64,000 nt of DNA, taken from assembly GCA_028867785.1 (NCBI GenBank), contig JAGWFS010000001.1, positions 267,488-331,487 of the forward strand, given 5' to 3'. This DNA comes from Nitrososphaerota archaeon (GTDB lineage Archaea; Thermoproteota; Nitrososphaeria; Nitrososphaerales; Nitrosopumilaceae). The notes beneath the pieces are model-generated. The model searched no databases and was not told the origin of the DNA. It was given only the letters and a program-made list of their open reading frames with translations. The position numbers were made by a program, and so were the translations under genes. Positions 38,199 through 54,367 of the stretch are shown here, piece after piece (position 1 is the stretch's first letter; each line of letters opens with the position of its first letter).

Positions 38199-38214
38199 TG
38201 TGAACAAGGCTTAA
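38199..38214 (+). repeat. Left att repeat of element 2 (16 bp)
   Basis: Exact copy of 49766-49781. It lies 37 bp upstream of the SSSCA1-family start. Confidence 0.8.
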
Positions 38215-38258
38215 AGTAATGCAAATCCTACTATGAATAGCCCTAAACTTCCTGCGTA

Positions 38259-38807
38259 TTAACTTTGTATGTTAACTCCAAAAGAAGTCAATATTCGTGG
38301 CACTTCCTTTATAAATTTCACAATCAAAGGCGCGTTCTCAATACATAATTTGACGGCTGAGCCTATGACATCATCAGAAAATTTTAGAGTTTTAATTATT
38401 CCTTTAAACTCCTGAGCCTGAGGACTCGCACTTACTTTATCAAGATGAGGCTGAATTTTCTCCAATGGTGTACCGATCTGCTTTCTATATTCAAAAATCC
38501 CGTCTTCTGTAATAACAATTCCTTCGACCCTGTGTTTCATTTCTTGTAATTTATTCGTCTGCTCTTCTTCCGGCAAATTCAGATTATCTATAACTGGAAC
38601 ATATTCAGATACTTCTCTTGTTGTGTTTTCTATATACTTGGCATCGGTTAATTGTTTTATAGCACTATCAAAATCATTCGACCCTGTCATAGAATCAAAA
38701 GATGCATTACAAAGTTTTTTCAATAAATCTTTTCTAGGAATCGGAACATTCTGATTGTACAAATAAGATAGAATCCATGTAACAACTGAAGTTTTAATAT
38801 CCATCAA
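38259..38807 (-). CDS. Hypothetical winged-helix-like protein (182 aa)
   Basis: N-terminal helices (VVTWILSYLYNQNVPIPRKD, DFDSAIKQLTDAKYIENT) resemble a winged helix; the rest is helical with a final amphipathic segment. No family recognised. First gene inside the left end of element 2. Confidence 0.65.
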   Translation of the reverse strand: MMDIKTSVVTWILSYLYNQNVPIPRKDLLKKLCNASFDSMTGSNDFDSAIKQLTDAKYIENTTREVSEYVPVIDNLNLPEEEQTNKLQEMKHRVEGIVITEDGIFEYRKQIGTPLEKIQPHLDKVSASPQAQEFKGIIKTLKFSDDVIGSAVKLCIENAPLIVKFIKEVPRILTSFGVNIQS

Positions 38808-38872
38808 AATTAAATTGGATATTCAATATATAAACAAAAACCTTTTCTGCCCAGAAATACGAGCTTGGAAAT

Positions 38873-39328
38873 ATGCAAGATAATATCACATTAGCCTCAA
38901 TTTATCGTCTTACCGCTGTAAATTTCTGGGAAAGTGCAAAGAAGCTAGATATGACACTTGAAAAACGTAATGATGGATCTCCTACCAAAGTCACTGCAAT
39001 ACCTTTCTACTTCTTGATTTCTCACGCTGTTGAATTGTTTCTTAAATCAGCATTATTAAAAAGAGGTTTTACTGAAAATGATATTAAAAAGTATGATTAC
39101 CGACACGATCTTGATTCACTTCTGGTAGCATTACAGAAAAAGGATGTAAATGTGTCCCCCGAAACAGTGACTATGATAAATGGTCTTAATGTGCTACACA
39201 AGACTCATGCTCTCAGATATGATGCCCTCCTAAAAAGCGGGAAAAAATTCTGGCCACCTACTCACCTTTTGCTCCAAATGCACGATGAATTGCTCTCATT
39301 GACTAGAATTTCTACTCATAACTCTTAA
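38873..39328 (+). CDS. HEPN-like protein (151 aa)
   Basis: Helical bundle with FLISHAVELFLKSALLKRGF and YRHDLDSLLVAL, the pattern seen in HEPN-type proteins that pair with nucleotidyltransferases or act as RNases. The strict R-x4-6-H catalytic motif is not evident, so activity is doubtful. Divergent from the gene at 38259; that pair may work together. Confidence 0.55.
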   Translation: MQDNITLASIYRLTAVNFWESAKKLDMTLEKRNDGSPTKVTAIPFYFLISHAVELFLKSALLKRGFTENDIKKYDYRHDLDSLLVALQKKDVNVSPETVTMINGLNVLHKTHALRYDALLKSGKKFWPPTHLLLQMHDELLSLTRISTHNS

Positions 39329-39377
39329 TTTTCACTTGCCCAACTTGTTTTTATCTTCGTTCACATCCCAAAATCCG

Positions 39378-39450
39378 GTCTTTCGTCAATTAGCGCAGAC
39401 GTGGAGTAATGTATCTATGGAGCGAGTTGGAGCGTAAGACTGGAAAGACC
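39378..39450. other. Possible structured RNA or operator
   Basis: GGTCTTTC (39378-39385) and GAAAGACC (39443-39450) are perfect inverted arms around GC-richer sequence than the surroundings, between two genes. It could be a small RNA or a transcript end; evidence is weak. Confidence 0.3.
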
Positions 39451-39461
39451 CTCTGCACTAA

Positions 39462-40694
39462 TCATATGCCTCTTAAATGTCTTCTTTCTTTTAATTTCTG
39501 GATATCTTGAGTTTCTTGATAATCGACTTCTGTAGCCAAAGCATCTTGTCTAGGATGGTGTGTCAGTTTTTCCTGTTCGGCTAAATCGCGTTCAGTATCC
39601 GAATTCTTTTTTTTATCCGACCTAATTTTCCCTATTTCGTATATAGTTGCTATTGCTTCTTCATACCTTGCTAACTTTAAAAGACAATCAAGTCTTAGAA
39701 ATAAAGTGTTGATATTATTAGAATCATTTTTTAAAACAATATTAGCAGAGGTTAACAGAACATATGCACTGGCTTCTAATTCTTTGTAGAATTTATCTAA
39801 GTTACTATATAACGGATATAGAAAACACAACTCGTAATTTACATGACTTGTTACAGAACGAACTACTTCGGAATGATAATCTATGCTTGGGTTAGAATAT
39901 TTTTTATTATAGATCTCAATCTTCTCATTCAGATCATTAACTAACTTATTATATTCAGGTATCTTTTCAGAAACTCTCTCTAAAGTTTTTATGATTTCCT
40001 CATTTATCTTATCAATCATCTTACCATATTTCTTAACAAGATATCGTGGGTCGTAGACTTTTTCCCCGCTACCTTTACATATCCAACAAGTTTCATTACG
40101 AGATTCTATTTTGTACTTTGAGTAATGTGGTTGAAAATCAGGACCATTATACATTGGACCCACTCCTATTTTATACGTGGCATTTGCTATGCCTTCACCC
40201 AAGCAATTTTCACATGTAAAACAAGGAAACTTTCTGCCATCAATGAAAACTTTTTCTTCTAATTTTGGTATGGGTTTTAGAATTGAGGGTACAAGTGGTT
40301 CTATTATGGATATAGTTTCTTGTTTATCATTGTTATTACCAAATCGTTTAAAAAATCCTTTAAATCCACTCGGTTTTTGTTCATGTAAACTTTCCTTATT
40401 GTGGGATTCAGCATTTGTAAATCCTGAATTCATGACTAGGTTATACTTGTCATTACTAATGTTATCGTTGAATAAGTCCTTAGGAGTTTTCTTAATCAAT
40501 TTTTTTGCCGTCGTAAGAGTAATAATTTCTTCAAAAACGGTAGGCCTCATAGCCCATAATAGAAAAAACCCTATACTTTGTTTTAGCTGAATTGATTCCA
40601 AATCCTCATTTGTTATTTCGTTACCTTTCATCGCTAAAAAATTCCAAATGTCATCCCACGGTCCGTCAAATACCTGTCTTATCCACTCTTCCAA
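39462..40694 (-). CDS. Protein with DnaJ-type CxxCxGxG knuckles and TPR-like C-terminus (410 aa)
   Basis: Two CxxCxGxG motifs (CENCLGEG and CWICKGSG), about 40 residues apart near residues 162-205, match half of a DnaJ zinc domain. No J-domain is present. The C-terminal 150 residues are helical repeats, TPR-like (NINTLFLRLDCLLKLARYEE). May be a chaperone-like adaptor; function unknown. Confidence 0.65.
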   Translation of the reverse strand: MEEWIRQVFDGPWDDIWNFLAMKGNEITNEDLESIQLKQSIGFFLLWAMRPTVFEEIITLTTAKKLIKKTPKDLFNDNISNDKYNLVMNSGFTNAESHNKESLHEQKPSGFKGFFKRFGNNNDKQETISIIEPLVPSILKPIPKLEEKVFIDGRKFPCFTCENCLGEGIANATYKIGVGPMYNGPDFQPHYSKYKIESRNETCWICKGSGEKVYDPRYLVKKYGKMIDKINEEIIKTLERVSEKIPEYNKLVNDLNEKIEIYNKKYSNPSIDYHSEVVRSVTSHVNYELCFLYPLYSNLDKFYKELEASAYVLLTSANIVLKNDSNNINTLFLRLDCLLKLARYEEAIATIYEIGKIRSDKKKNSDTERDLAEQEKLTHHPRQDALATEVDYQETQDIQKLKERRHLRGI

Positions 40695-40740
40695 ATTTTA
40701 TCATCCTGTAATAACCCTGACTTTTACTAAAACATTCTTA

Positions 40741-41137
40741 GAAACCCCTGCCAAACGACTATCTATAAGACTAGATAAAACCTGACCCACTATGGTTCCT
40801 CATCTGTTCCCTCCTTTCTTTATCCAGCTCGCTAGTTCCATAGGGGTTGAAAGGTTTACCATGTGTATTAGAATAAGAACTAGCTCCTCTCCCCCATATT
40901 ACGGAAGCTATGATGGGACCGACCACTAACCCACTAAAACCTATCAATAATACAGATATGACTAAATCAGCACGTATCCACAAGACTAGAGCTTCTGGAA
41001 TTCCTACGAAGTATCCAACAAATATGAAAAAACCAATCAAATTTCTATATTTTCCCACAAACCACCTCGCCTATCCCTGATTAATAAGCATATTATTCAA
41101 ACTAACATGACATTGAAACCCCTGCCAAACGACTATC
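40741..41137 (+). repeat. 23-bp direct repeat flanking the small membrane gene
   Basis: The unit starting GAAACCCCTGCCAAACGACT (23 bp) occurs at 40741-40763 and 41115-41137. Each copy runs into a short hairpin of different sequence (TATCTA/TAGATA; TCAAC-gaa-GTTGA). A shorter relative (CATTGAAACCC plus hairpin CTCAAC/GTTGAG) lies near 43412-43435. Confidence 0.7.
40771..41058 (-). CDS. Small membrane protein (95 aa)
   Basis: Hydrophobic segments at about 8-27 and 32-58, then a polar Ser/Asn-rich tail. No family recognised. Its start faces the structured RNA candidate, and the shared gap holds AT-rich promoter-like DNA. Confidence 0.6.
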   Translation of the reverse strand: MGKYRNLIGFFIFVGYFVGIPEALVLWIRADLVISVLLIGFSGLVVGPIIASVIWGRGASSYSNTHGKPFNPYGTSELDKERREQMRNHSGSGFI

Positions 41138-41545
41138 AACGAAGTTGAAGGAGTGCGGAGCGAAGCGGAGACCCCTGACGAGCCGACATATATCCGAGCG
41201 AAGCGAGGACGAGCCACCCGAAGGGTGGCGAAGCCCGAACGAGCCTACGTGAGTAGGCGAGTGAGTGGTATATGGAGGGAAGATGAGTAGGGGATGAGTC
41301 TCACTCATCATCCTACGAACCCTGAGCGAAGCGAGGGGCGAAGGCTTGCAGTATCGCAAAGAGGGGTGTCATCGTCAGATGACGGGGTGAATTTGCGAAC
41401 GAAGAGCCAAAGTCTTTCCTCCATATGGCATAGCATCAGGAGCGCAAGCGACGATGCTTAGGTATATGTCGGCGAGTCATAATTATGGGAGCATAGTCTC
41501 AAGAGGGGGTGTCCTGAAGGGACGGGGTGAATTGAGACGGAGCAT
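41113..41545 (+). ncRNA. Large ornate structured RNA candidate (about 430 nt)
   Basis: No convincing ORF covers this. A closing helix TGAC-GA-GCCGACATATA (41176-41192) pairs with TATATGTCGGC-GA-GTCA (41463-41479), including a tandem G-A mismatch. Inside it are 41270-41278/41418-41426 (9 bp), hairpins 41213-41229 (7 bp, GAA loop), 41243-41258 (GTGA loop), 41287-41316, 41320-41338 and 41432-41458 (GCAA loop). Tandem GA pairs recur in several stems. All helices are compatible. GNRA loops and G-A pairs are on the + strand, fixing orientation. A TATA-like ATTAATAAGCATATTATT lies at about 41080-41097. Ends are approximate. Confidence 0.75.
41354..41538 (+). repeat. Two copies of an RNA motif with compensatory changes
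   Basis: Copy A 41354-41398: TCGCAAA/TTTGCGA encloses AGGGG-T-GTCATC/GATGAC-GGGGTGAA. Copy B 41496-41538: GTCTCAA/TTGAGAC encloses AGGGGG-T-GTCC/GGAC-GGGGTGAA. Both helices change sequence yet keep pairing, while the internal-loop bases stay constant. Confidence 0.75.
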
Positions 41546-41606
41546 GTTAACACAATTTCATAAATTCGGTGACAAATAATAAAAACCCGCCCGTTGCAAA
41601 GAAGAC

Positions 41607-41667
41607 GCTCTCAGGGGCACAAGAAGCCTGTGAAACAACGTACGTACGGGGCTTCCAACCTGAGAGC
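41607..41667 (+). other. Nested inverted repeat next to origin-like DNA
   Basis: GCTCTCAGG (41607-41615) pairs with CCTGAGAGC (41659-41667), enclosing GAAGCC (41623-41628) with GGCTTC (41650-41655). Separate from the ornate RNA. Could be a transcript element, a terminator without T-run, or part of an origin. Confidence 0.5.
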
Positions 41668-41672
41668 AGTAA

Positions 41673-41767
41673 TACTAACCATGTACTAACTTGTACTAAT
41701 TATGTCTTAAGGCATGCACGTGCATGCCTCGAAAGCGACACATTAATTAAATTCTATAGTACTATAG
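41673..41767. other. Origin-like or control region: short iterons and palindromes
   Basis: TACTAA repeats at 41673, 41684 and 41694 (one helical turn apart). A perfect 20-bp palindrome lies at 41710-41729 (AGGCATGCACGTGCATGCCT), followed by AT-rich DNA (ATTAATTAAATT) and a 14-bp palindrome CTATAGTACTATAG at 41754-41767. This order is typical of plasmid origins or strong operator-promoter regions. The small gene at 41784 begins directly after. Confidence 0.5.
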
Positions 41768-41783
41768 TAATATAGTGAAAAGG

Positions 41784-41888
41784 ATGCAACAACCAAAGAA
41801 AGAATGGGAAGAACGCCATTATCGGATAGCAAAAGAATCTGATGAGAAGTTCAAGACCCACACTAAAGATCAAGAAATAGATATTTAA
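41784..41888 (+). CDS. Charged microprotein (34 aa)
   Basis: ATG preceded by GAAAAGG. Product MQQPKKEWEERHYRIAKESD and onward is all polar helix. Too short to classify. Position just after the origin-like region suggests an element regulator, but it may be a chance ORF. Confidence 0.4.
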   Translation: MQQPKKEWEERHYRIAKESDEKFKTHTKDQEIDI

Positions 41889-41910
41889 TCCTAGATTTTT
41901 CTATAACTGC

Positions 41911-42180
41911 ATGCCAGTTTTTTGGAAATGTAAAACAACGACGTGGTCACAATATTATAAAACCATCGAGTACATATCAGACCCATCGATAGACCTCATA
42001 GAGCAATTCAAAAAAGAAATAGTAAACATCGCCGATCCCAAAACTCACAAAGATTACGTTCCATGCAATCATGTAGAGCGAAGTAGGTGGCATCTATTAT
42101 TCATTCTTGGTAGCAGAGTAGAGATCATAGTAAAACCAGACAAAGACATTCTCTATTTTGTTTATTGTGCTGACATCTAA
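41911..42180 (+). CDS. Hypothetical protein (89 aa)
   Basis: ATG start. Small alpha/beta protein with Trp/Tyr-rich N-terminus (WKCKTTTWSQYYKTIEYISD) and a C-terminal strand (YFVYCADI). No family recognised. Ends in a four-base overlap with the convergent membrane gene. Confidence 0.55.
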   Translation: MPVFWKCKTTTWSQYYKTIEYISDPSIDLIEQFKKEIVNIADPKTHKDYVPCNHVERSRWHLLFILGSRVEIIVKPDKDILYFVYCADI

Positions 42181-42419
42181 GTAAATAATGCCGCATTAAG
42201 GATTTCATATCCTATTCCGCCTATTATCAAAACGAATCCTATTAACACTCCTTTTCTCCTTCTCTCAAATTTTTTTTCCTCCTCAACTTTTATCATCTCG
42301 AAACTATTTTTTCTTATTCTATTCAAAATCCATTCGAAATTTAGATTTTCAACATACGTAAGAAGAAAAACACCAACAAACTGTGGAAGAAATCCCAGAC
42401 AAATTAACCAAAACTGCAT
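42177..42419 (-). CDS. Small membrane protein with two helices (80 aa)
   Basis: Hydrophobic segments at about 2-22 and 57-77 separated by a charged coiled stretch (EMIKVEEEKKFERRRK). No family recognised. Confidence 0.6.
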   Translation of the reverse strand: MQFWLICLGFLPQFVGVFLLTYVENLNFEWILNRIRKNSFEMIKVEEEKKFERRRKGVLIGFVLIIGGIGYEILNAALFT

Positions 42420-42462
42420 ATATTTACTGCAAGTTTCAAATATTAAAACAAAATGTTAAGCG

Positions 42463-42512
42463 CTCCGAGAAAAGACCTCGTTGCCTCATAGACACATTCG
42501 GCTGACTCGGAG
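42463..42512. other. Inverted repeat in a gene-poor stretch
   Basis: CTCCGAG (42463-42469) pairs with CTCGGAG (42506-42512). The surrounding 42450-42605 is richer in GC than its AT-rich flanks and has no ORF; it may be a small RNA. Weak evidence. Confidence 0.3.
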
Positions 42513-42620
42513 AGGTTACAGCTCACGATCTTAGGACTGCAAGAAGGTCAAGTTAACGCGTTGGAACCAATGTTCATAACCAGCAGGTTTAATGCTTCGA
42601 CGAATTAAAATAAAATACAA

Positions 42621-43124
42621 ATGGGGATACGAATAAAATCAAAATCAGATGAATTTACCTTAAGAGACCTTTCAGAATTTCTAAATTGTTTAGATAACAT
42701 ATACAAAGCGGAGGTATTATTGTTACAGCATAAGAAAATCGAGACTCCTTATTTTTATAGAAAAAAACTAAAAGACTCTGAATCTATTTTTGTTGGTGAA
42801 ATATCAAAAAAGTCACCTTTTGATATAACGATAGTCCCAACTATAACATATGATGGTATTGCGGCGACAATACTTAGCATTATTCAAATCATAATAGCCG
42901 TGAAATCAATATGTAAAGATAAAAACAATGATAAAAGCAAAGCTGAGAAAGAAAGAAGAAGAACCATACTAAAAACTGAATTTGAACGTAAACAAGTAAG
43001 ACGATATGATGGTGTTATCGAAGAAGAGAGTATAAAATTGACTTATTCTAAGATTGAAATGGATGAAGTAGATATTGAAGATAAAGACTATGAAAAATAT
43101 TTTGGCAAAAAGCCACATGATTAG
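42621..43124 (+). CDS. Hypothetical membrane-associated protein (167 aa)
   Basis: ATG start. N-terminal alpha/beta part (LRDLSEFLNCLDNIYKAEVL), one hydrophobic helix (about 77-95, AATILSIIQIIIAVKSI), then a strongly charged tail. Layout resembles small effector-like proteins with a membrane helix, but no family is recognised. Confidence 0.6.
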   Translation: MGIRIKSKSDEFTLRDLSEFLNCLDNIYKAEVLLLQHKKIETPYFYRKKLKDSESIFVGEISKKSPFDITIVPTITYDGIAATILSIIQIIIAVKSICKDKNNDKSKAEKERRRTILKTEFERKQVRRYDGVIEEESIKLTYSKIEMDEVDIEDKDYEKYFGKKPHD

Positions 43125-43172
43125 AGTACATTGGTAAAGTTAAAGTGAAAGATCAGCGCTAGTTTACTTGGT

Positions 43173-43400
43173 GTGAAAATGGAAACGCCAAACCGAAACG
43201 GCTTTGAGACAAGAAGAGCAGAGATACACCAAGTTCTTACCTGGTGTCAGAAATGCGGAAGGCTATCTGCGACCATACCTGTCAAACAGAAATTCAGGTG
43301 TGCATATTGCGGAGTCTGGTCTTACGCAAACATCCATGTAAGAGGGTACAAGGTTGTGTATTTCAACCAAAAAAGACCCTCTCTCTTCCTAAGAAAGTAA
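43173..43400 (+). CDS. Zinc-ribbon protein (75 aa)
   Basis: GTG start. C-x2-C...C-x2-C ribbon (CQKC and CAYC) in a basic protein. Likely nucleic-acid binding. No family recognised. Confidence 0.6.
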   Translation: MKMETPNRNGFETRRAEIHQVLTWCQKCGRLSATIPVKQKFRCAYCGVWSYANIHVRGYKVVYFNQKRPSLFLRK

Positions 43401-43469
43401 CACCGTAGAGCGACATTGAAACCCTCAACAATCCAGTTGAGCCAAGTAGGTGTTCGCTCACCCACATAA

Positions 43470-43631
43470 TTACAGGCTAAGAATGGTGGGTTTCAGATCC
43501 AAATGATAACTCTTCTGTCCCACTACTGCAACAATATGACCGCAACTGGCAACATACCAATCTATTCTACCTTTTACCATCACGCCATACTCTCTAGCCA
43601 GTTCCTCTCTAATCAGTTCACTACTTATCAT
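43470..43631 (-). CDS. Small protein (53 aa), last gene of a zinc-finger operon
   Basis: ATG overlaps the stop of the C2H2 gene (ATGA) and GAGGTGAT lies eight bases upstream. Product begins MISSELIREELAREYGVMVK with one Cys-Gly-His. Not recognised. Confidence 0.65.
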   Translation of the reverse strand: MISSELIREELAREYGVMVKGRIDWYVASCGHIVAVVGQKSYHLDLKPTILSL

Positions 43632-43735
43632 CGATATATCACCTCGATATGATGTACGTGTATTCTCTTATGCTCGCGCCAATCTGCAATCTTGTGGAAT
43701 AATTGGTCGCAATACGGACACTGATAGACCTTCAT
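43628..43735 (-). CDS. Single C2H2 zinc-finger microprotein (35 aa)
   Basis: ATG at 43735 overlaps the previous stop (ATGA). Almost the whole protein is one finger C-x2-C-x12-H-x3-H (CPYCDQLFHKIADWREHKRI...). C2H2 microproteins are common in archaeal viruses and plasmids as DNA-binding regulators. Confidence 0.75.
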   Translation of the reverse strand: MKVYQCPYCDQLFHKIADWREHKRIHVHHIEVIYR

Positions 43736-43974
43736 TGCTGGCTCACCTTCATGTGTATAGTCTTGATATGATGCGCCAGATTCTCGCCAGAGAAATAACG
43801 ATGAGAGCAATAGTTACAAGTAAATCTTGGTTGCTCTCTCTGGTCGTCTCCTACCTTTGCATACTCTTCAATCAGATGCGAGATGAAATCGCTAGGGCTT
43901 AGTTTCTTTGACCCGCACAACTTCATCAATTCCGCGAAGATTCTCGGACTCAAGTTTATTTTCATAGTTTTCAC
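43732..43974 (-). CDS. RHH plus C2H2 zinc-finger protein (80 aa)
   Basis: GTG at 43974 overlaps the upstream TGA (GTGA). N-terminal ribbon-helix-helix (MKINLSPRIFAELMKLCGSK, LSPSDFISHLIEEYAKV) followed by one C2H2 finger (CNYCSHRYFSGENLAHHIKT). A fusion of two DNA-binding modules; probable element regulator. Confidence 0.75.
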   Translation of the reverse strand: MKTMKINLSPRIFAELMKLCGSKKLSPSDFISHLIEEYAKVGDDQREQPRFTCNYCSHRYFSGENLAHHIKTIHMKVSQQ

Positions 43975-44117
43975 CGGTACTCATAACGCCTTTTGATATT
44001 CTTAATCCTCTTAACACATGGCACACAGATTCTAACCTCTTCATAATAAACCGAATGTGGTACAGATTTCGTCTTAATTGGTTTCTTGCACACTACACAT
44101 ATCTCGGATACAGCCAC
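43971..44117 (-). CDS. Zinc-ribbon microprotein (48 aa)
   Basis: GTG start at 44117. Two CxxC knuckles (CVVCKKP and CVPCVKR) and a basic tail. First gene of the four-gene overlapping operon running to 43470. Confidence 0.65.
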   Translation of the reverse strand: MAVSEICVVCKKPIKTKSVPHSVYYEEVRICVPCVKRIKNIKRRYEYR

Positions 44118-44182
44118 TCAATCACTATATCATTTTGAAAGCATAGTTCTAAATACCCACACTACGACTTGCATTTACTTTG

Positions 44183-44506
44183 CTAAATCTTCACTTTTCG
44201 TAGTGCTACAAACATCACAAGACAGAAAACCGGAACTGAGACTGCAAAAAGCAAAGGCGATTCTAACTGAGATGACATTCCAAAGGTAATGATGACAGGA
44301 ACAATTGCTGCGGATGCAATCACTATTGCCCATATTGCTTTGATGATAATTACAAACCAGCCAACAAGATTTTGTCTTTGTCTAAATACATTGTAATGTT
44401 GTTGTAACCAAGTCTTGTTTCGCACCGCCTTGAACCAGACTACAAGACATATGCATGCAAAAGCCAGAGGAGAGCCTAGAGCTGCATAAATCCCAAAATC
44501 ATCCAT
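44183..44506 (-). CDS. Membrane protein with three helices (107 aa)
   Basis: Hydrophobic stretches at about 5-27, 48-72 and 82-102. Starts within the 3' end of the preceding membrane gene. Probably one operon with the HerA-like ATPase. No family recognised. Confidence 0.7.
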   Translation of the reverse strand: MDDFGIYAALGSPLAFACICLVVWFKAVRNKTWLQQHYNVFRQRQNLVGWFVIIIKAIWAIVIASAAIVPVIITFGMSSQLESPLLFAVSVPVFCLVMFVALRKVKI

Positions 44507-44841
44507 GTTCCAAACAGCCCTCGATGAGTCTCTATCAGATATATCGTACTAGTGATAGACCAGACAAACAGCATACTGCCGATTATAATAACAGGAATCA
44601 GAACAGGCAAGACTCGAAGCCACGTCCGCCATGTCCTGCGTCCATCAGCATCTACTATCCATTCTGCTCTAGCACCGCGCCTTATCCACACAAAGACAGA
44701 ATATCCAAGAACTGTTACAAGAAACAACACTAGCCCCCCTATACTTAGAACAATGAGAGAGATCCACATGCCAGCGATTAGCCCTATGGCTATTCCCAAC
44801 AATCTTAATCGGTCAAGCCAGAGTCTAGCGAGGTGGCTCAT
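44476..44841 (-). CDS. Membrane protein with three to four helices (121 aa)
   Basis: Hydrophobic stretches at about 14-50, 72-97 and 105-121, with a basic loop (WIRRGARAEW). Overlaps the ATPase gene by 17 bp and the next gene by 31 bp, so co-translation is likely. No family recognised. Confidence 0.7.
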   Translation of the reverse strand: MSHLARLWLDRLRLLGIAIGLIAGMWISLIVLSIGGLVLFLVTVLGYSVFVWIRRGARAEWIVDADGRRTWRTWLRVLPVLIPVIIIGSMLFVWSITSTIYLIETHRGLFGTWMILGFMQL

Positions 44842-46672
44842 TTCTCAAACTCCTAATCAAGTCTGCCAGTTCCGGCAAACAACAAACAAAAAATCGTCCT
44901 TCTATACCATCGACAACACTCAATGTTGCCTCGTAATGTTTCTGCACATCTCTGTTGACGCAAACAATTATTGCGGATTTGGTAAACTGTATCTTGTTTT
45001 GCAACTTTGTAACGTCATCTTTTTTATCATGCTGGAATCCTGTCTTGAAATCGTAAAAAGCCGTTGCACTTTCCAAGTCCCACCCTTGATTGCCCCTATA
45101 CTCTGAAATTATAGGCTCTATACTCTCGACAACTCTCTTAATCCTCGCAACTCCGTCTTCATGAAGCGGTGTCTCTACATTTCCTTCCTGTATGAAATAA
45201 TACTTTCTTGGTTTGATGTCCTTCTCTGTGATAAAACTAATGACTCTAACTTTCTTGTTGCCAAGAAGACTTTTCAAAGAATCCTTGAACGTTATCCTAT
45301 CTTTTGATTTGTTGTCAATGCCAATTTTTTTAGAAATTTCATTTCCATAAAGGGGACTCTCTTTTTCAAGAAGTTCTACGATTTTGCTTTCAATCTCTTT
45401 TCTATCTAGTCTTGGCTCTGGCGTCTGTTCTGGTAAAGTTTTAGGCTCTTCTTTCTTCTCTTCTTCCTTGATTTCTGCCTCATTTCGAACACTTGGAATA
45501 GGTTTGCCTATCCACTGAAAAATCGGTATAAAGTGGTCGTCATAGTGTTGCTTGATATCGATAAACTCAAAATTTTTTAGGTTTCTGACTGTATAGCGTA
45601 GCATATCGCTTGCAACAAGCCCGAGGTCTGCAAAGTCAGTTGTGTTAAAGACAAATTGCATACCCATATTCCCGCGTATGCCATATGGAATATCTGAAAG
45701 AAATTGTGATAAAATCCAGAGCCCACCACTGAAGGCTCGACCCATACGCGCCATGTTATTTAGCACTGAATAATTCGACACGTCACCTTTTTCTTTGGCG
45801 TGAACTAACCTGTGCGACTCGTCAATCACAAGAATAAAGTCCATCTCGTTGCTTGCGACCATCTGCTCAAGTGAGATTGCTATTAGCAGATTGGAATAGA
45901 AAACCAAACTATCTCCGTCTAATCCGGAAAAGTCCCATACTACGTTAGATTTTTCAATCTTCCAGTCGCGAACAACTGTGACTTGGGAAAATTCTTTCAT
46001 TCGGAAAAGCAATCCTTCTATTGCCAACTTGTACTCGCTTGTCTTCCTCAACTTCTCTAATCGTTCGATGGCATCATCAAATGACCGAAGAGGTGGATTG
46101 CATAGGTTTGTCAAGATGTTTTTTATGGCATCGGCATTAATCCCAACGCTTGTTATGTTGGAGCAGGTCAATAGAACGCTATTGATAAAATATTTTGGAG
46201 AATATGCAAACGGGTCAGGCAACCCGACACGAGAGACATCTATTATCTTAAAACCTTCTAACGAAGTCCACAGATCATACATCTTGGGTGAGATAACCCA
46301 CGCCTTGTAGTAGCCTTCCTCAACTCGTTTTTCTAACAACTTCCAGCCAAGGAAACTTTTACCAGAGCCTGCCGCACCTGTGATACTCAGATTTCTATTT
46401 GTGCGCGGTTCTTTGAATTCAACTGGTGTAAAATCCATGTAGGGCAAGGGGTCAACTTCTCTTGGTTTGAGGTCTTCGCGTACTGGCATGATGCGTTCAA
46501 ACGTTCCGTTGGCTAGTTTTATCACACCCCACACCGAGGCTATGTGATACATGGTGTCTTTCAGTCTGCTTGGAATGCCAAAAAAGAACCTACGTATTCT
46601 CTCAAAAAGTGTGAGTCTTCGTTCAATCAATTTTTGCCATCTCGTCTTCCTAAAATCACCAGTACTGGACAA
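44825..46672 (-). CDS. HerA/FtsK-type ATPase with winged helix and nuclease-like tail (element 2)
   Basis: TTG start. Walker A GAAGSGKS (about residues 98-105), Walker B FILVIDESHRL, sensor ARMGRAFSGGLWILSQ. A charged linker (about 405-425), a winged-helix region (about 428-490) and a tail with GWDLESATAFYDFKTGF, which could be a D...DxK nuclease core. The order matches the two long ATPases in element 1. Flanking membrane genes suggest DNA movement at the membrane. Confidence 0.8.
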   Translation of the reverse strand: MSSTGDFRKTRWQKLIERRLTLFERIRRFFFGIPSRLKDTMYHIASVWGVIKLANGTFERIMPVREDLKPREVDPLPYMDFTPVEFKEPRTNRNLSITGAAGSGKSFLGWKLLEKRVEEGYYKAWVISPKMYDLWTSLEGFKIIDVSRVGLPDPFAYSPKYFINSVLLTCSNITSVGINADAIKNILTNLCNPPLRSFDDAIERLEKLRKTSEYKLAIEGLLFRMKEFSQVTVVRDWKIEKSNVVWDFSGLDGDSLVFYSNLLIAISLEQMVASNEMDFILVIDESHRLVHAKEKGDVSNYSVLNNMARMGRAFSGGLWILSQFLSDIPYGIRGNMGMQFVFNTTDFADLGLVASDMLRYTVRNLKNFEFIDIKQHYDDHFIPIFQWIGKPIPSVRNEAEIKEEEKKEEPKTLPEQTPEPRLDRKEIESKIVELLEKESPLYGNEISKKIGIDNKSKDRITFKDSLKSLLGNKKVRVISFITEKDIKPRKYYFIQEGNVETPLHEDGVARIKRVVESIEPIISEYRGNQGWDLESATAFYDFKTGFQHDKKDDVTKLQNKIQFTKSAIIVCVNRDVQKHYEATLSVVDGIEGRFFVCCLPELADLIRSLRNEPPR

Positions 46673-46700
46673 CCATATTGAATGACTAAATATTTAGAAC

Positions 46701-46961
46701 TTAGCATATTCCCGCTGCTTCCTTTTTTGCTTCGATTTTCTTGATTGCTTGCAAAATCCTGCGTCGAAACTCGTCGTCAGTCATGACTTGAACCCTATCG
46801 TAATACTCGCCCACTTGGTTGTAGTCTGTGGGGTTAAGCTCCATATCTTGAGCCATTTGCTCTAGTACTAAACAATCTACATCTCCTATGCTCAAGAGTT
46901 GCTCGATGCGTTTCTTTAGCCACCTTCGCAGTTGGGGAAAGTAAAAATCAAAATTGCTCAT
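46701..46961 (-). CDS. Hypothetical protein (86 aa)
   Basis: Helical, charged (YFPQLRRWLKKRIEQLLSIG at the start; FRRRILQAIKKIEAKKEA at the end). Overlaps the upstream gene by four bases. No family recognised; sits between the secreted protein and the ATPase. Confidence 0.65.
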   Translation of the reverse strand: MSNFDFYFPQLRRWLKKRIEQLLSIGDVDCLVLEQMAQDMELNPTDYNQVGEYYDRVQVMTDDEFRRRILQAIKKIEAKKEAAGIC

Positions 46962-47737
46962 GTCTGATTTTCCCAGTCGTGTGGTTTGCTTCTCTTTTTT
47001 TCCTCGATTGCTGCCCTTAATTTCTCTAGAAATGGGTAGAGTTGTTTTCTCTCGACAACTTTTGTGATAAAATCTGAAGCGAATTTGGAGTTTTGTAACA
47101 TATCCATTAATTCCTCTGATCTTGGCTTTGGTGGCTTGGGTTTAGTCATATAGGCACCAAAAATTTTCCATCCGTATATGGAACCAAAGAACGCTATGAT
47201 TATTGCAATTATTCCCTCGAAAATGGTATACTCTTTTGGTTGAGGATTACTAGTCGGAACTTGTGGAGTTGTAATTTTAGTTTCAATTTTTGTTGTATTG
47301 ATGCTTGGAGAACCTTTTACTACCTTTACCTCAGCGATGTTTGAATAGTCAACTTCATCATTTACATCGTAAATTGCTAATCTGAATCGATGAATTCCGC
47401 TTGAATTATCTCCTGCGTTGAAGTGAAAGAACTGATTACTTCCGTCATTTGTTAATGCGCCGTTGGATACAGCAAGCCAGTTGTTACCATCCCTAGGCTG
47501 AAAATTCTCGTACCAAACAAAATTGAATGGTATAGTGCCCCCATGTATATGCCCTGCATCAGTAATTGTGTCATTAGTATATTCCATAATTGTATCTTTA
47601 TCAGGAATAATCGAAATCTGACCCGTTAGTAACGTGGTGCTAGGCAAGTTTACAATATTTGAGTTCTGTGCATAAGCAAAATGGAAAAGGATTACAGAAA
47701 TTATCAAAAAAATAGTTAGTGTATGCATTGTTTTCAT
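46958..47737 (-). CDS. Exported Ig-like protein with membrane anchor (259 aa)
   Basis: ATG at 47737 overlaps the upstream stop and opens a clear signal peptide (MHTLTIFLIISVILFHFAYA). A beta-sandwich domain follows (about 30-150, with FNFVWYENFQP and HRFRLAIYDVND), then a Thr/Pro-rich stretch, a membrane helix (EGIIAIIIAFFGSIYGW) and a basic cytoplasmic tail. Could face the outside of the cell as part of a transfer or surface-exclusion apparatus; inference. Confidence 0.75.
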   Translation of the reverse strand: MKTMHTLTIFLIISVILFHFAYAQNSNIVNLPSTTLLTGQISIIPDKDTIMEYTNDTITDAGHIHGGTIPFNFVWYENFQPRDGNNWLAVSNGALTNDGSNQFFHFNAGDNSSGIHRFRLAIYDVNDEVDYSNIAEVKVVKGSPSINTTKIETKITTPQVPTSNPQPKEYTIFEGIIAIIIAFFGSIYGWKIFGAYMTKPKPPKPRSEELMDMLQNSKFASDFITKVVERKQLYPFLEKLRAAIEEKKRSKPHDWENQT

Positions 47738-47868
47738 GCAGTCATCATCCTTCGAAGCAACCCAATTGCGCACTGATACTTTTCAAAGTCTGTATGTCCT
47801 TTCTCACCTTTCTCACTCCGGATTTTTTTTCCACAAAAAAGACATATGTTGGGTTTATACTCCAACAC
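47734..47868 (-). CDS. Zinc-binding microprotein (44 aa)
   Basis: GTG at 47868 (or TTG at 47865) with GGAGG upstream. CLFC...GH...C ligands and a basic C-terminus (LLRRMM). Overlaps both neighbours. Missed by length-limited gene calling. Confidence 0.6.
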   Translation of the reverse strand: MLEYKPNICLFCGKKIRSEKGEKGHTDFEKYQCAIGLLRRMMTA

Positions 47869-48031
47869 CACCGCCCTCCTCAGAAGATTTTGACCTGCCT
47901 CTCACAGACCATAAAGCCAGCGTTCCTATGGTCTCACCCTGTAGGTTCTTGAGCACACCAGACCACGTAGGCATACGCTTCTGTGTAGAGCTGTCTGAAA
48001 CTTCCTTTGTTTTGTTTGTAGAATTGCTCAT
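47855..48031 (-). CDS. Small Ser/Gly-rich protein (58 aa)
   Basis: ATG at 48031. Polar, with a central WSGVLKNLQGETIGTLALWS and a Gly-rich end. First gene of the HerA/membrane operon of element 2. Not recognised. Confidence 0.5.
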   Translation of the reverse strand: MSNSTNKTKEVSDSSTQKRMPTWSGVLKNLQGETIGTLALWSVRGRSKSSEEGGGVGV

Positions 48032-48173
48032 GCGTATGATATAGTACCAATTATTTTAAGATGGCATGTTTTTCGTTCATCATCAGACAAACGTTCGACA
48101 CATACCAAACAAGTAATCGTTTTATTCCAAACTAATAGTAAATGTTTTAAAGAAAAAATCACTTATCATATTC

Positions 48174-48650
48174 GTGGAAGATTCTAATCTAGCAAAGATA
48201 TTGGAGATTTTAAATAAAAATAAAAACCCAATTACACAAAAACAAATAGTGGTCGAAACGAAAGTTTCAAAGGCTACAGTTTCAGAAATATTAAAAAAAC
48301 TTGTGGCTGAAAAGGATGTTGAGAGAATACAATCACCCTATGACCAGTTGAAATACAAACTAAGCCTTGATAGCAATAGGAATAATCTTTTCTTTTCTGA
48401 GCCTGATTATGATTCATACACTGACATTAGAAAAATAATATTGAAAATTACAACTCAGAAACGCATAGATTGGTTTGAGAATGTAGTGTTTAACAAGAGA
48501 AATACAAAATTTGATTATCCATACAGACGTTTATTTACAAAAAGAGCCCAAGAGATTTACTCTGAATTTAAAAAAAAGAGCCCGAGACTTGCCGAGAAAC
48601 TTAGAACTGAAATGATTGACGAATTAAAAGAAGAATATAGAAAATACTAA
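48174..48650 (+). CDS. Winged-helix regulator (158 aa)
   Basis: GTG start shortly after a TATA-like AAATGTTTTAAAG. N-terminal winged helix (ITQKQIVVETKVSKATVSEI, then LKKLVAEKDVERI) and a helical basic C-terminal half. Divergent from the HerA operon, so probably its regulator. 3' end overlaps the convergent integrase by four bases. Confidence 0.75.
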   Translation: MEDSNLAKILEILNKNKNPITQKQIVVETKVSKATVSEILKKLVAEKDVERIQSPYDQLKYKLSLDSNRNNLFFSEPDYDSYTDIRKIILKITTQKRIDWFENVVFNKRNTKFDYPYRRLFTKRAQEIYSEFKKKSPRLAEKLRTEMIDELKEEYRKY

Positions 48651-49735
48651 TCTTTCTTACCTAACAACTCATACAAACCTCTAATCTGTTCCTGAGTCTC
48701 TCTGTGTTTTGTTTCAAGTTCTACGATACGCTTATCCTTTTCCGATTCCAATAACTCAGCTTTTTTCTCAGCATTCTCCGCCCTAATCCTCTGGCGTTCT
48801 CCGTCAGATACAATTAACTCAGGCATTATCTTTAGCCATGCGTCAAACAGGTTCTCTCTAGTAGGTCTGAAATAACTAGGATCTAAATCAATTTGATGCC
48901 CTAACAATCTTTCGCCTACACTATATGGAATATCCTTATTCAGTTTGATTATAGTCCCGTATCTTTTACGCAATCCATGGACTCCCATTATATTGTACCT
49001 GCTTTCAGTAATCTTTTTCCTTACACTTGTCTTCCTGATAACTCTCTGCATAACCTGCCTTAGTGCCTCTAAACCCATGGGTTTTACCTTTTGTATTCCT
49101 ACTTGATAACTTGCCCTAAACAAAGGCGACTCTTCATTAAGGTATTCTCCATCCCTTTTTCTTTTCTCTAAATATTCATCCAATACTTTAGATGCCTCTG
49201 GAGTAAGGAAAGTTTGATATTCTTCATTTGAACCCTCATAGATTTTTATGCATTTGCAATTATGAGACATATTCTCAACATGTTTTAGTTTCAGTTCAGG
49301 AATAGCTCCTAATCTACAACCTGTAGAAGCAAGAAAGTGTACGAGTGTCCTTCCTCGTAAATGCTCTCCTTCTAACATCTTTTTAACATCCTCGGTTTGA
49401 TATGCCAGATGACCACTTTTCTTTACTTGTGTTGGCACCATTCTCTTTATTTTGTCCCAGTTGAGAATTTTATCATTCATGGAAAAGAATAACTGCAAAC
49501 TGGCTACTATTGGTTGAAATGAGTTGGGCGAAATCCTACTTCTAAGATAAAAGACATAATCTTCCACCATTTCTTGCAATGCGGATTCCCTAAGTTGGAG
49601 TATGCCATCGCCGTTTTTGATTTTAGACCAATTCAAAAATCTATTAAAGTGATAAAGATAACTTTTCTTGGTTGCCTCTGATCGTACATATTTCTCAAAG
49701 ACTAGAAGGCTTCTATCCATACCACATGTCACCAC
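48647..49735 (-). CDS. Tyrosine recombinase/integrase of element 2
   Basis: Complete catalytic set: Arg141 (STGCRLGAIPEL), Lys in the beta-hairpin (KCIKIYEG), His253-x-x-Arg256 (GVHGLRKRYGT), His280 (LLGH) and Tyr288 (DPSYFRP). A coiled coil ends the protein, and no zinc ribbon is present, unlike the two element-1 enzymes. GTG start after AGAGGT, 31 bp from the right att repeat. Confidence 0.9.
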   Translation of the reverse strand: MVTCGMDRSLLVFEKYVRSEATKKSYLYHFNRFLNWSKIKNGDGILQLRESALQEMVEDYVFYLRSRISPNSFQPIVASLQLFFSMNDKILNWDKIKRMVPTQVKKSGHLAYQTEDVKKMLEGEHLRGRTLVHFLASTGCRLGAIPELKLKHVENMSHNCKCIKIYEGSNEEYQTFLTPEASKVLDEYLEKRKRDGEYLNEESPLFRASYQVGIQKVKPMGLEALRQVMQRVIRKTSVRKKITESRYNIMGVHGLRKRYGTIIKLNKDIPYSVGERLLGHQIDLDPSYFRPTRENLFDAWLKIMPELIVSDGERQRIRAENAEKKAELLESEKDKRIVELETKHRETQEQIRGLYELLGKKD

Positions 49736-49765
49736 TTACCTCTATTAATGTATGGAAACAGTCTG

Positions 49766-49781
49766 TGTGAACAAGGCTTAA
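49766..49781 (+). repeat. Right att repeat of element 2 (16 bp)
   Basis: TGTGAACAAGGCTTAA, identical to 38199-38214. Followed by TAGTAGG and the aIF1 start 27 bp later, so it overlaps the likely aIF1 promoter (TTAATA). Confidence 0.8.
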
Positions 49782-54018: not shown

Positions 54019-54367
54019 AAACTATCTACAAACAAAAAAAGTGCGCGCCAGCCGTAACCCTCCTTCTGTTTTACGAGATTCAGCTATGCGGCCTACCTAA
54101 ACAAAGTGCAGCGCTTGTTGTTTGATTTGGCCTTTCTCCATGTGGTACAGATTTTTCATTCCGTTACCGGGAATCTCAGGCATTACCATCACAGTACGCC
54201 CCAGTTCGGATAGATTTCTGTTCTGTTTCCAGTCATCTCTGACTATCCGTCTCCGGATCACATTTGCTGCATGGAGGGAGGAGTTTCCTCTGCCGAAGCA
54301 GCGCCTCGTTCACCGGCTCGCACTACAGGCAAGTCAGACAAGATTCTATTTTAGCATTGGCAATATG
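54019..54367. other. Intergenic stretch, no secure gene
   Basis: Between a surface-protein gene and the convergent APC transporter. A leftward 55-codon frame exists (ending near 54116) but has no good start signal; the rightward frame across it runs into the transporter gene antisense. I see no RNA gene or repeat. Confidence 0.4.

Follow-up and report, generated by a model that had tools for sequence, protein, structure and literature searches.

A 64,000-nucleotide (nt) stretch of contig JAGWFS010000001.1 from a Nitrososphaerota archaeon (hereafter, the window) contains, at positions 41116-41543 on the + strand, a conserved structured element of 428 nt, whose full conserved extent was defined from homologues, folding and covariation. 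We are highly confident of this identification: the elaborate structure, present here in an ammonia-oxidising archaeon, has been kept by evolution in related genomes. The element is most likely RNA, which we favour over single-stranded DNA, and we put at roughly 55% the probability that it represents a new family of structured noncoding RNAs that are autonomous and are borne on mobile toxin-antitoxin cassettes. The autonomous gene is the more conjectural part of this interpretation, compared with the identity as a conserved structured element. An earlier note, made from the letters alone, had marked 41113-41545 as a candidate structured RNA; its sequence, coordinates and nested helices agree with ours, folding and strong covariation among the six full-length homologous members support the candidate, and only the boundaries shift slightly.

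A common fold in the full-length members

The segment 41113-41560 has a minimum free energy (MFE) of -188.7 kcal/mol, compared with a mean of -137.6 kcal/mol for its shuffled versions (z = -8.62; 0 of 100 dinucleotide shuffles as low). Full-length members were found at six loci, in the window and in genomes G244, G202, G345, G261 and G200; they span 342-431 nt (428, 431, 407, 392, 375 and 342 nt) and have a conserved, strand-biased secondary structure. When each member was folded alone, a common plan emerged, in which helix P1 closes a large domain, helix P2 lies inside that domain, the G-rich receptor hairpin M1 lies within P2, and a second receptor hairpin, M2, follows P1.

The 5' domain (41116-41176) is nearly invariant in sequence, with 45 invariant columns among seven loci (model R2). 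It includes a hairpin with a GAA loop, hp0 (41136-41140/41144-41148), in which 3 of 5 positions are changed on both sides among eight loci, and two C-runs (ACCCCU) at 41118-41123 and 41171-41176. The long closing helix with interposed GA/GA that had been proposed earlier corresponds to P1, whose 5' strand (GAC-GA-GCCGACATATA, 41177-41192) pairs with 41463-41478, and the proposed inner helix corresponds to P2, in which 41269-41283 pairs with 41413-41427; both helices covary in the relatives. M1 (41354-41398; alignment A1, model R1) is composed of an outer helix (TCGCAAA/TTTGCGA), an internal loop (GAGGGG...GGGGTGAA) and a variable inner hairpin. M2 (GTCTCAA/TTGAGAC), together with the 3' end GGAGC, occupies 41496-41543 and was defined by alignment, model and covariation. 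The arrangement AAGAGGGGTG-hairpin-CGGGGTGAATT is common to M1 and M2.

The earlier note described tandem G-A pairs in many stems, and hairpins with GNRA or GAA loops. In the MFE structures of the six full-length members, 19 of the 22 2x2 internal loops are GA/GA, and hairpins are capped most often by GAA (12 cases). The 2x2 loops of the - strand are UC/UC in 9 of 10 cases. On the + strand G-U pairs number 8 versus 2 A-C mismatches, and the raw folding energy is lower on the + strand in all 11 sequences. The element had been considered free of open reading frames (ORFs), and indeed its + strand has no stop-free stretch longer than 57 codons; on the - strand the longest spans 84 codons.

Compensatory changes in the core helices

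The core of P1, P2, M1 and M2 is retained through heavy sequence change in the six full-length members. Over its 29 pairs in six rows, 96.6% of the 174 cells are paired, compared with 71.9% after shuffling (0 of 500 shuffles as high), and 19 of the 29 pairs are changed on both sides, versus 9.9 in the shuffled sets. Sliding the partners reduces the pairing to 37.5-43.2%. The 7-bp core of P1 has been rewritten between genomes yet always pairs (GCCGACA/TGTCGGC, GTTGGCA/TGCCGAC, ACGAAAT/ATTTCGT and CAACGGC/GCCGTTG), with 42 of 42 own pairs over six loci and all seven positions changed on both sides. The 8-bp core of P2 forms 48 of 48 own pairs over six loci (5/8 positions changed on both sides), and the corresponding counts are 5/7 for the M1 outer helix and 2/7 for that of M2. 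When the 3' strands were swapped between genomes, the pairs decreased from 42 to 23.4 of 42 in P1, from 48 to 37.9 of 48 in P2, and from 37 to 25.9 of 42 in the M1 outer helix.

Relation to known RNAs and distribution

Rfam 15 includes GOLLD, ROOL, OLE, HEARO and group I introns. A scan of the whole window with its 4227 models yielded no match for the element at gathering thresholds, in line with the earlier statement that it could not be assigned to GOLLD, ROOL, OLE, HEARO, group II introns or RNase P. Permissive scans (E up to 10) of the window element and two divergent homologues returned noise only. Elsewhere in the window, Rfam finds only an archaeal RNase P (54043-54321, - strand) and a tRNA (1433-1528, + strand); the latter match, 96 nt long and missed by ARAGORN, possibly contains an intron. 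No description of such an RNA was found in the open-licence literature on Nitrosotalea, Thaumarchaeota or archaeal ornate RNAs, which is weak evidence of absence because only open-licence papers were covered.

The RNA is present in 10 of the 37 genomes of the window's genus (Nitrosotalea-like) and in none of the 213 other genomes of the family that were searched. Similarly, when 41100-41560 was compared by BLAST with 400 genomes from the order, real relatives appeared only within the genus; the matches outside it (G187, G124 and others) were coding sequence or short chance matches. Among 250 family genomes, model R1, which represents the G-rich hairpin, matched with E < 1e-4 only in nine genomes of the genus (G000, G183, G200, G202, G244, G261, G279, G345 and G403), with a weaker match in G132. 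Model R2 matched 8 of the 250, all in the genus, and missed G200 and G261, which lack most of the 5' domain. A pattern scan of the whole collection pointed to these same genomes, under the names Thaumarchaeota archaeon REEA16, REEA25 and REEA26, Centralia_MAG_119, Nitrosopumilaceae archaeon JOPF033 and Candidatus Nitrosotalea sp. sed-bin190.

In total 15 loci were assembled, 14 of them independent, G345 and G403 being near-identical: the window, G244:C111, G244:C110 (3' end only, at a contig edge), G183:C16, G202, G345/G403, G261 (5' domain shortened), G200, G279:C96 right, G279:C96 left (partial), G279:C55, G279:C32, G279:C125 and G132:C11 (decayed). Weak R1 matches in G043, G168, G248, G183:C66 and G132:C77 had no surrounding RNA and were dropped. 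Bacterial matches to the G-motif pattern were mostly those expected by chance, and the five examined were each single-copy in their own genome and were therefore treated as unrelated. In viral contigs, pattern scans and a toxin search revealed no family member among the matches listed: none of the 22 pattern matches continues as the RNA 5' domain beyond the searched 15-mer, and BLAST with the RNA set gave best matches of 19-26 nt. The phage and plasmid collections gave one 28-nt chance match and none, respectively.

Toxin-antitoxin-like genes beside the RNA

At 10 of the 14 independent loci (the window, putatively; G244:C111, G244:C110, G183, G202, G261, G279:C96 right and left, G279:C55 and G132), a short antitoxin-like ORF begins shortly downstream of the RNA in the same orientation, and a toxin-like gene usually comes next. 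Most of these ORFs share an MQRA start, and the antitoxin of the relatives matches no family. The neighbouring toxins are of several kinds: ParE/RelE-like (E = 3.7e-4 in Pfam and 1.5e-4 in NCBIfam, neither reaching the cut-off), PemK (37.9 bits versus a Pfam cut-off of 23.1, with the G244 relative assigned by BLAST) and GNAT (28.3 bits versus a Pfam cut-off of 20.7). In G279:C96 right the contig end cuts the gene in the toxin position, which in G132 is held by an ORF read as transposase-like. In the window, a 34-codon ORF (MQQPKK..., 41784-41888, + strand) is a putative antitoxin, judging from its position and from a promoter/palindrome block resembling those of the relatives' MQRA antitoxins; the 89-amino-acid ORF in the toxin position (41911-42180, + strand) matches nothing in Pfam or NCBIfam. 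A second structured stretch with palindromic hairpins (41560-41740; z = -3.67) lies after the RNA and before the antitoxin-like ORF.

RNA and operon also occur apart. Four independent loci (G345/G403, G200, G279:C32 and G279:C125) carry the RNA with no co-oriented toxin-antitoxin genes, and the full-length RNAs among them, in G345/G403 and G200, argue for autonomy. A small MPRxEY protein, which has no Pfam match and reads as ribbon-helix-helix-like, is encoded near the RNA in G345/G403, G279:C125 and G279:C96. Conversely, a search with the commonest antitoxin found 11 copies without the RNA. By eye, six of them (G000:C261, G183:C36, G132:C24, G165, G400 and G403:C11) retain part of the RNA 3' end, similar to GAATTGAGAC, at about the same distance, and five do not (two in G258, one in G337, a second copy in G165, and G000:C111 at 117.6 kb). 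RNA and operon thus probably accompanied each other more commonly in the past, and the RNA can be lost first. Since the neighbouring toxins differ, a toxin-specific antitoxin role is unlikely; the RNA would more likely serve the cassette itself than neutralise one toxin.

Mobility and genomic setting

The RNA loci of the relatives lie near pheS, thiL/rps11, sucC/D-like genes and tRNAs (gene names read from translations), and these differing neighbours imply that the unit moves. At thiL/rps11, six genomes have a gap of 30 bp, G183 and G400 hold an antitoxin-toxin unit plus an RNA fragment between copies of TGTTTT, and the other genomes have other sequence or an unreadable site. Upstream of six loci with otherwise differing flanks lies a promoter-like block, CTTCAACCTTTAATTTTC. 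The TATA-like box that had been noticed on the 5' side of the window RNA is not itself conserved; the block of these six other loci is a different one.

The window RNA resides in an integrated mobile element (38199-49781) bounded by exact 16-bp direct repeats (38199-38214 and 49766-49781) and encoding a tyrosine integrase (48647-49735, - strand; PF00589, E = 1.3e-6) and an AAA-like ATPase (44825-46672, - strand; AAA_10, E = 9.7e-6, just below the cut-off). Small zinc-finger-like proteins are also encoded in it. Thaumarchaeal integrated elements with short attachment repeats have been described in PMC6563490, and the window element fits that description.

An exact second copy of the 23-nt RNA 5' end (GAAACCCCTGCCAAACGACTATC), with none of the rest of the RNA, lies 374 nt upstream (40741-40763, + strand; counted from 41115). 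The two 23-nt repeats (40741-41137) flank a unit that measures 374 nt from start to start and holds a 95-codon ORF on the - strand (40771-41058); it looks as though something had been inserted into the RNA 5' end. At some relatives a junction sequence, GAACAAATGTTTTTTAGTCAACTGCAATCCAGTGGTCTAAA, recurs between genes at steps of ~0.5-3.6 kb, in the same orientation within a run: at sites 4323, 4827, 5654 and 6489 of L447 (G087:C1), and in L448 (G345:C203), L449 (G132:C82) and L450 (G000:C33). Its core pattern (at most two mismatches) occurs in 20 of the 37 genus genomes, with 0 matches for a reversed-pattern control. These junctions resemble either gene-cassette arrays of the integron kind or a promoter block common to one gene family. 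In G345 the RNA begins shortly after a GAACAAATGTTTTTTAGTCAACTGCAATCCAGTGGTCTAAA-type junction, and the G279:C125 RNA (L319, 835-1200) is convergent with, and close to, a tRNA-Phe gene.

Discussion

In the mechanism that we propose, the element would be transcribed as an autonomous structured noncoding RNA gene, and the two C-runs of its invariant 5' domain would dock into the G-runs (AGGGGU) of M1 and M2, to which they are complementary, either in the same molecule or in another one, so that a compact RNA or ribonucleoprotein forms. The toxin-antitoxin genes would then be addiction or defence cargo that aids persistence of the cassette. C-run/G-run docking is a hypothesis drawn from this complementarity; in G345, AUCCCU accompanies AGGGAU in M1, a compensated change that is suggestive. 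The picture as a whole, a new mobile archaeal unit with a constant autonomous RNA as platform, exchangeable toxin-antitoxin genes as keeper and an RNA particle formed through C-run arms docked in G-rich receptor hairpins within or between molecules, is speculative, and we would not expect all of it to hold.

Several observations weigh against the reading as an autonomous, cassette-borne RNA. The covariation derives from only six full-length sequences, with helices chosen by eye and alignment rows registered by hand, which favours the model; the strand swap is less exposed to this bias, because every strand stays at its own place. In 6 of 10 members (G403 excluded as a near copy), the - strand reaches a shuffled z-score at least as extreme as that of the + strand, so these scores are no evidence for the strand. 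Two truncated members fold at or near chance (G279:C55, z = -0.13; G132, z = -1.64), and the C-runs match their own G-runs not significantly better than swapped ones over all members (fractions 0.079 to 0.432). The operon in the window is putative, its 89-amino-acid ORF matching no family and its 34-codon ORF being judged by position and leader similarity. Finally, the RNA is dispensable for the 11 antitoxin copies that lack it.

Possible, though in our view unlikely, is that the structure is a cis-acting leader, that is, a 5' untranslated region or upstream regulator tuning expression of the toxin-antitoxin operon. The close upstream position on the same strand at 10 of 14 independent loci would suit a leader, and the 3'-end pieces in six RNA-less antitoxin copies could be a retained regulatory part. 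However, the antitoxin genes appear to have a TATA-like box and a palindromic operator of their own between the RNA and the start codon, the RNA occurs at four independent loci where no co-oriented operon follows, and a leader of 400 nt whose closing helices lie so far apart would be a large one. We regard it as improbable that the palindromes act as folded single-stranded DNA, moving the cassette by serving as a site of recombination or replication, even with the exact duplication of the 5' end around the 374-nt insert, the cassette-like junctions near the relatives' loci and the numerous C(GAA)G mini-hairpins, which are known to be stable in DNA. The window element folds with z = -5.10 under DNA parameters versus -8.62 as RNA (with slightly different ends), a promoter-like block precedes six loci, and no recombinase common to the carrying loci was seen among ORFs within ~3 kb, inspected by eye with no hidden Markov model (HMM) search.

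The remaining two explanations are both highly improbable. If there were no RNA gene, GA-rich palindromic repeats or a - strand protein gene would have to account for the conservation. Stop-free - strand stretches of 64-130 codons do exist in six members, one running into a zinc-ribbon-like ORF in G183, but the length differences of the element are not all multiples of three, no - strand ORF of at least 70 codons is listed across it in G244 or within its first 370 nt in G200, and its helices show compensatory two-sided changes; the antisense ORF was set aside with no codon-level test. The mobile context and patchy presence would also befit a relic RNA partner of a transposon (an omega RNA, bridge RNA or intron) whose protein was lost. 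Against such a relic, Rfam shows no match to these families, apart from a single group II fragment, below threshold at 10.3 bits, on the opposite strand at one locus, and no IscB, TnpB, reverse transcriptase or IS110 was noticed by eye, with no HMM search, among neighbouring ORFs at ten loci.

The RNA family has a model supported by covariation and a defined partner in the genome, so its function is open to testing. If a noncoding RNA stayed constant while the toxins beside it were exchanged, its relation to toxin-antitoxin modules would be an unusual one. Like type III systems (ToxIN, CptIN), the cassettes have a noncoding RNA directly upstream of a toxin operon. The cassettes differ in that they include an ORF for an antitoxin-like protein, that the toxins next to the RNA belong to several unrelated families (ParE/RelE-like, PemK and GNAT, with no match for the window candidate) rather than to the ToxN, CptN or TenpN type, and that the RNA is not made of short tandem repeats: a repeat search of 40600-41800 found direct repeats in three families of two copies each (23, 16 and 15 nt), but no tandem array. 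Type II cassettes (ParE/RelE, PemK/MazF, GNAT) similarly place a small ORF and a toxin-like gene behind a palindromic operator-like sequence, whereas here a large conserved RNA element precedes the operon. As a long conserved structure with covariation support, the element can be set beside the large ornate RNAs GOLLD, ROOL and OLE, to which it is similar in its length of several hundred nt, its elaborate conserved structure, its poorly understood function and its potential for docking between segments, as they are portrayed in PMC12286853. It differs from the RNAs portrayed there in having no Rfam match, in being archaeal rather than bacterial, and in its coupling to toxin-antitoxin-like genes.
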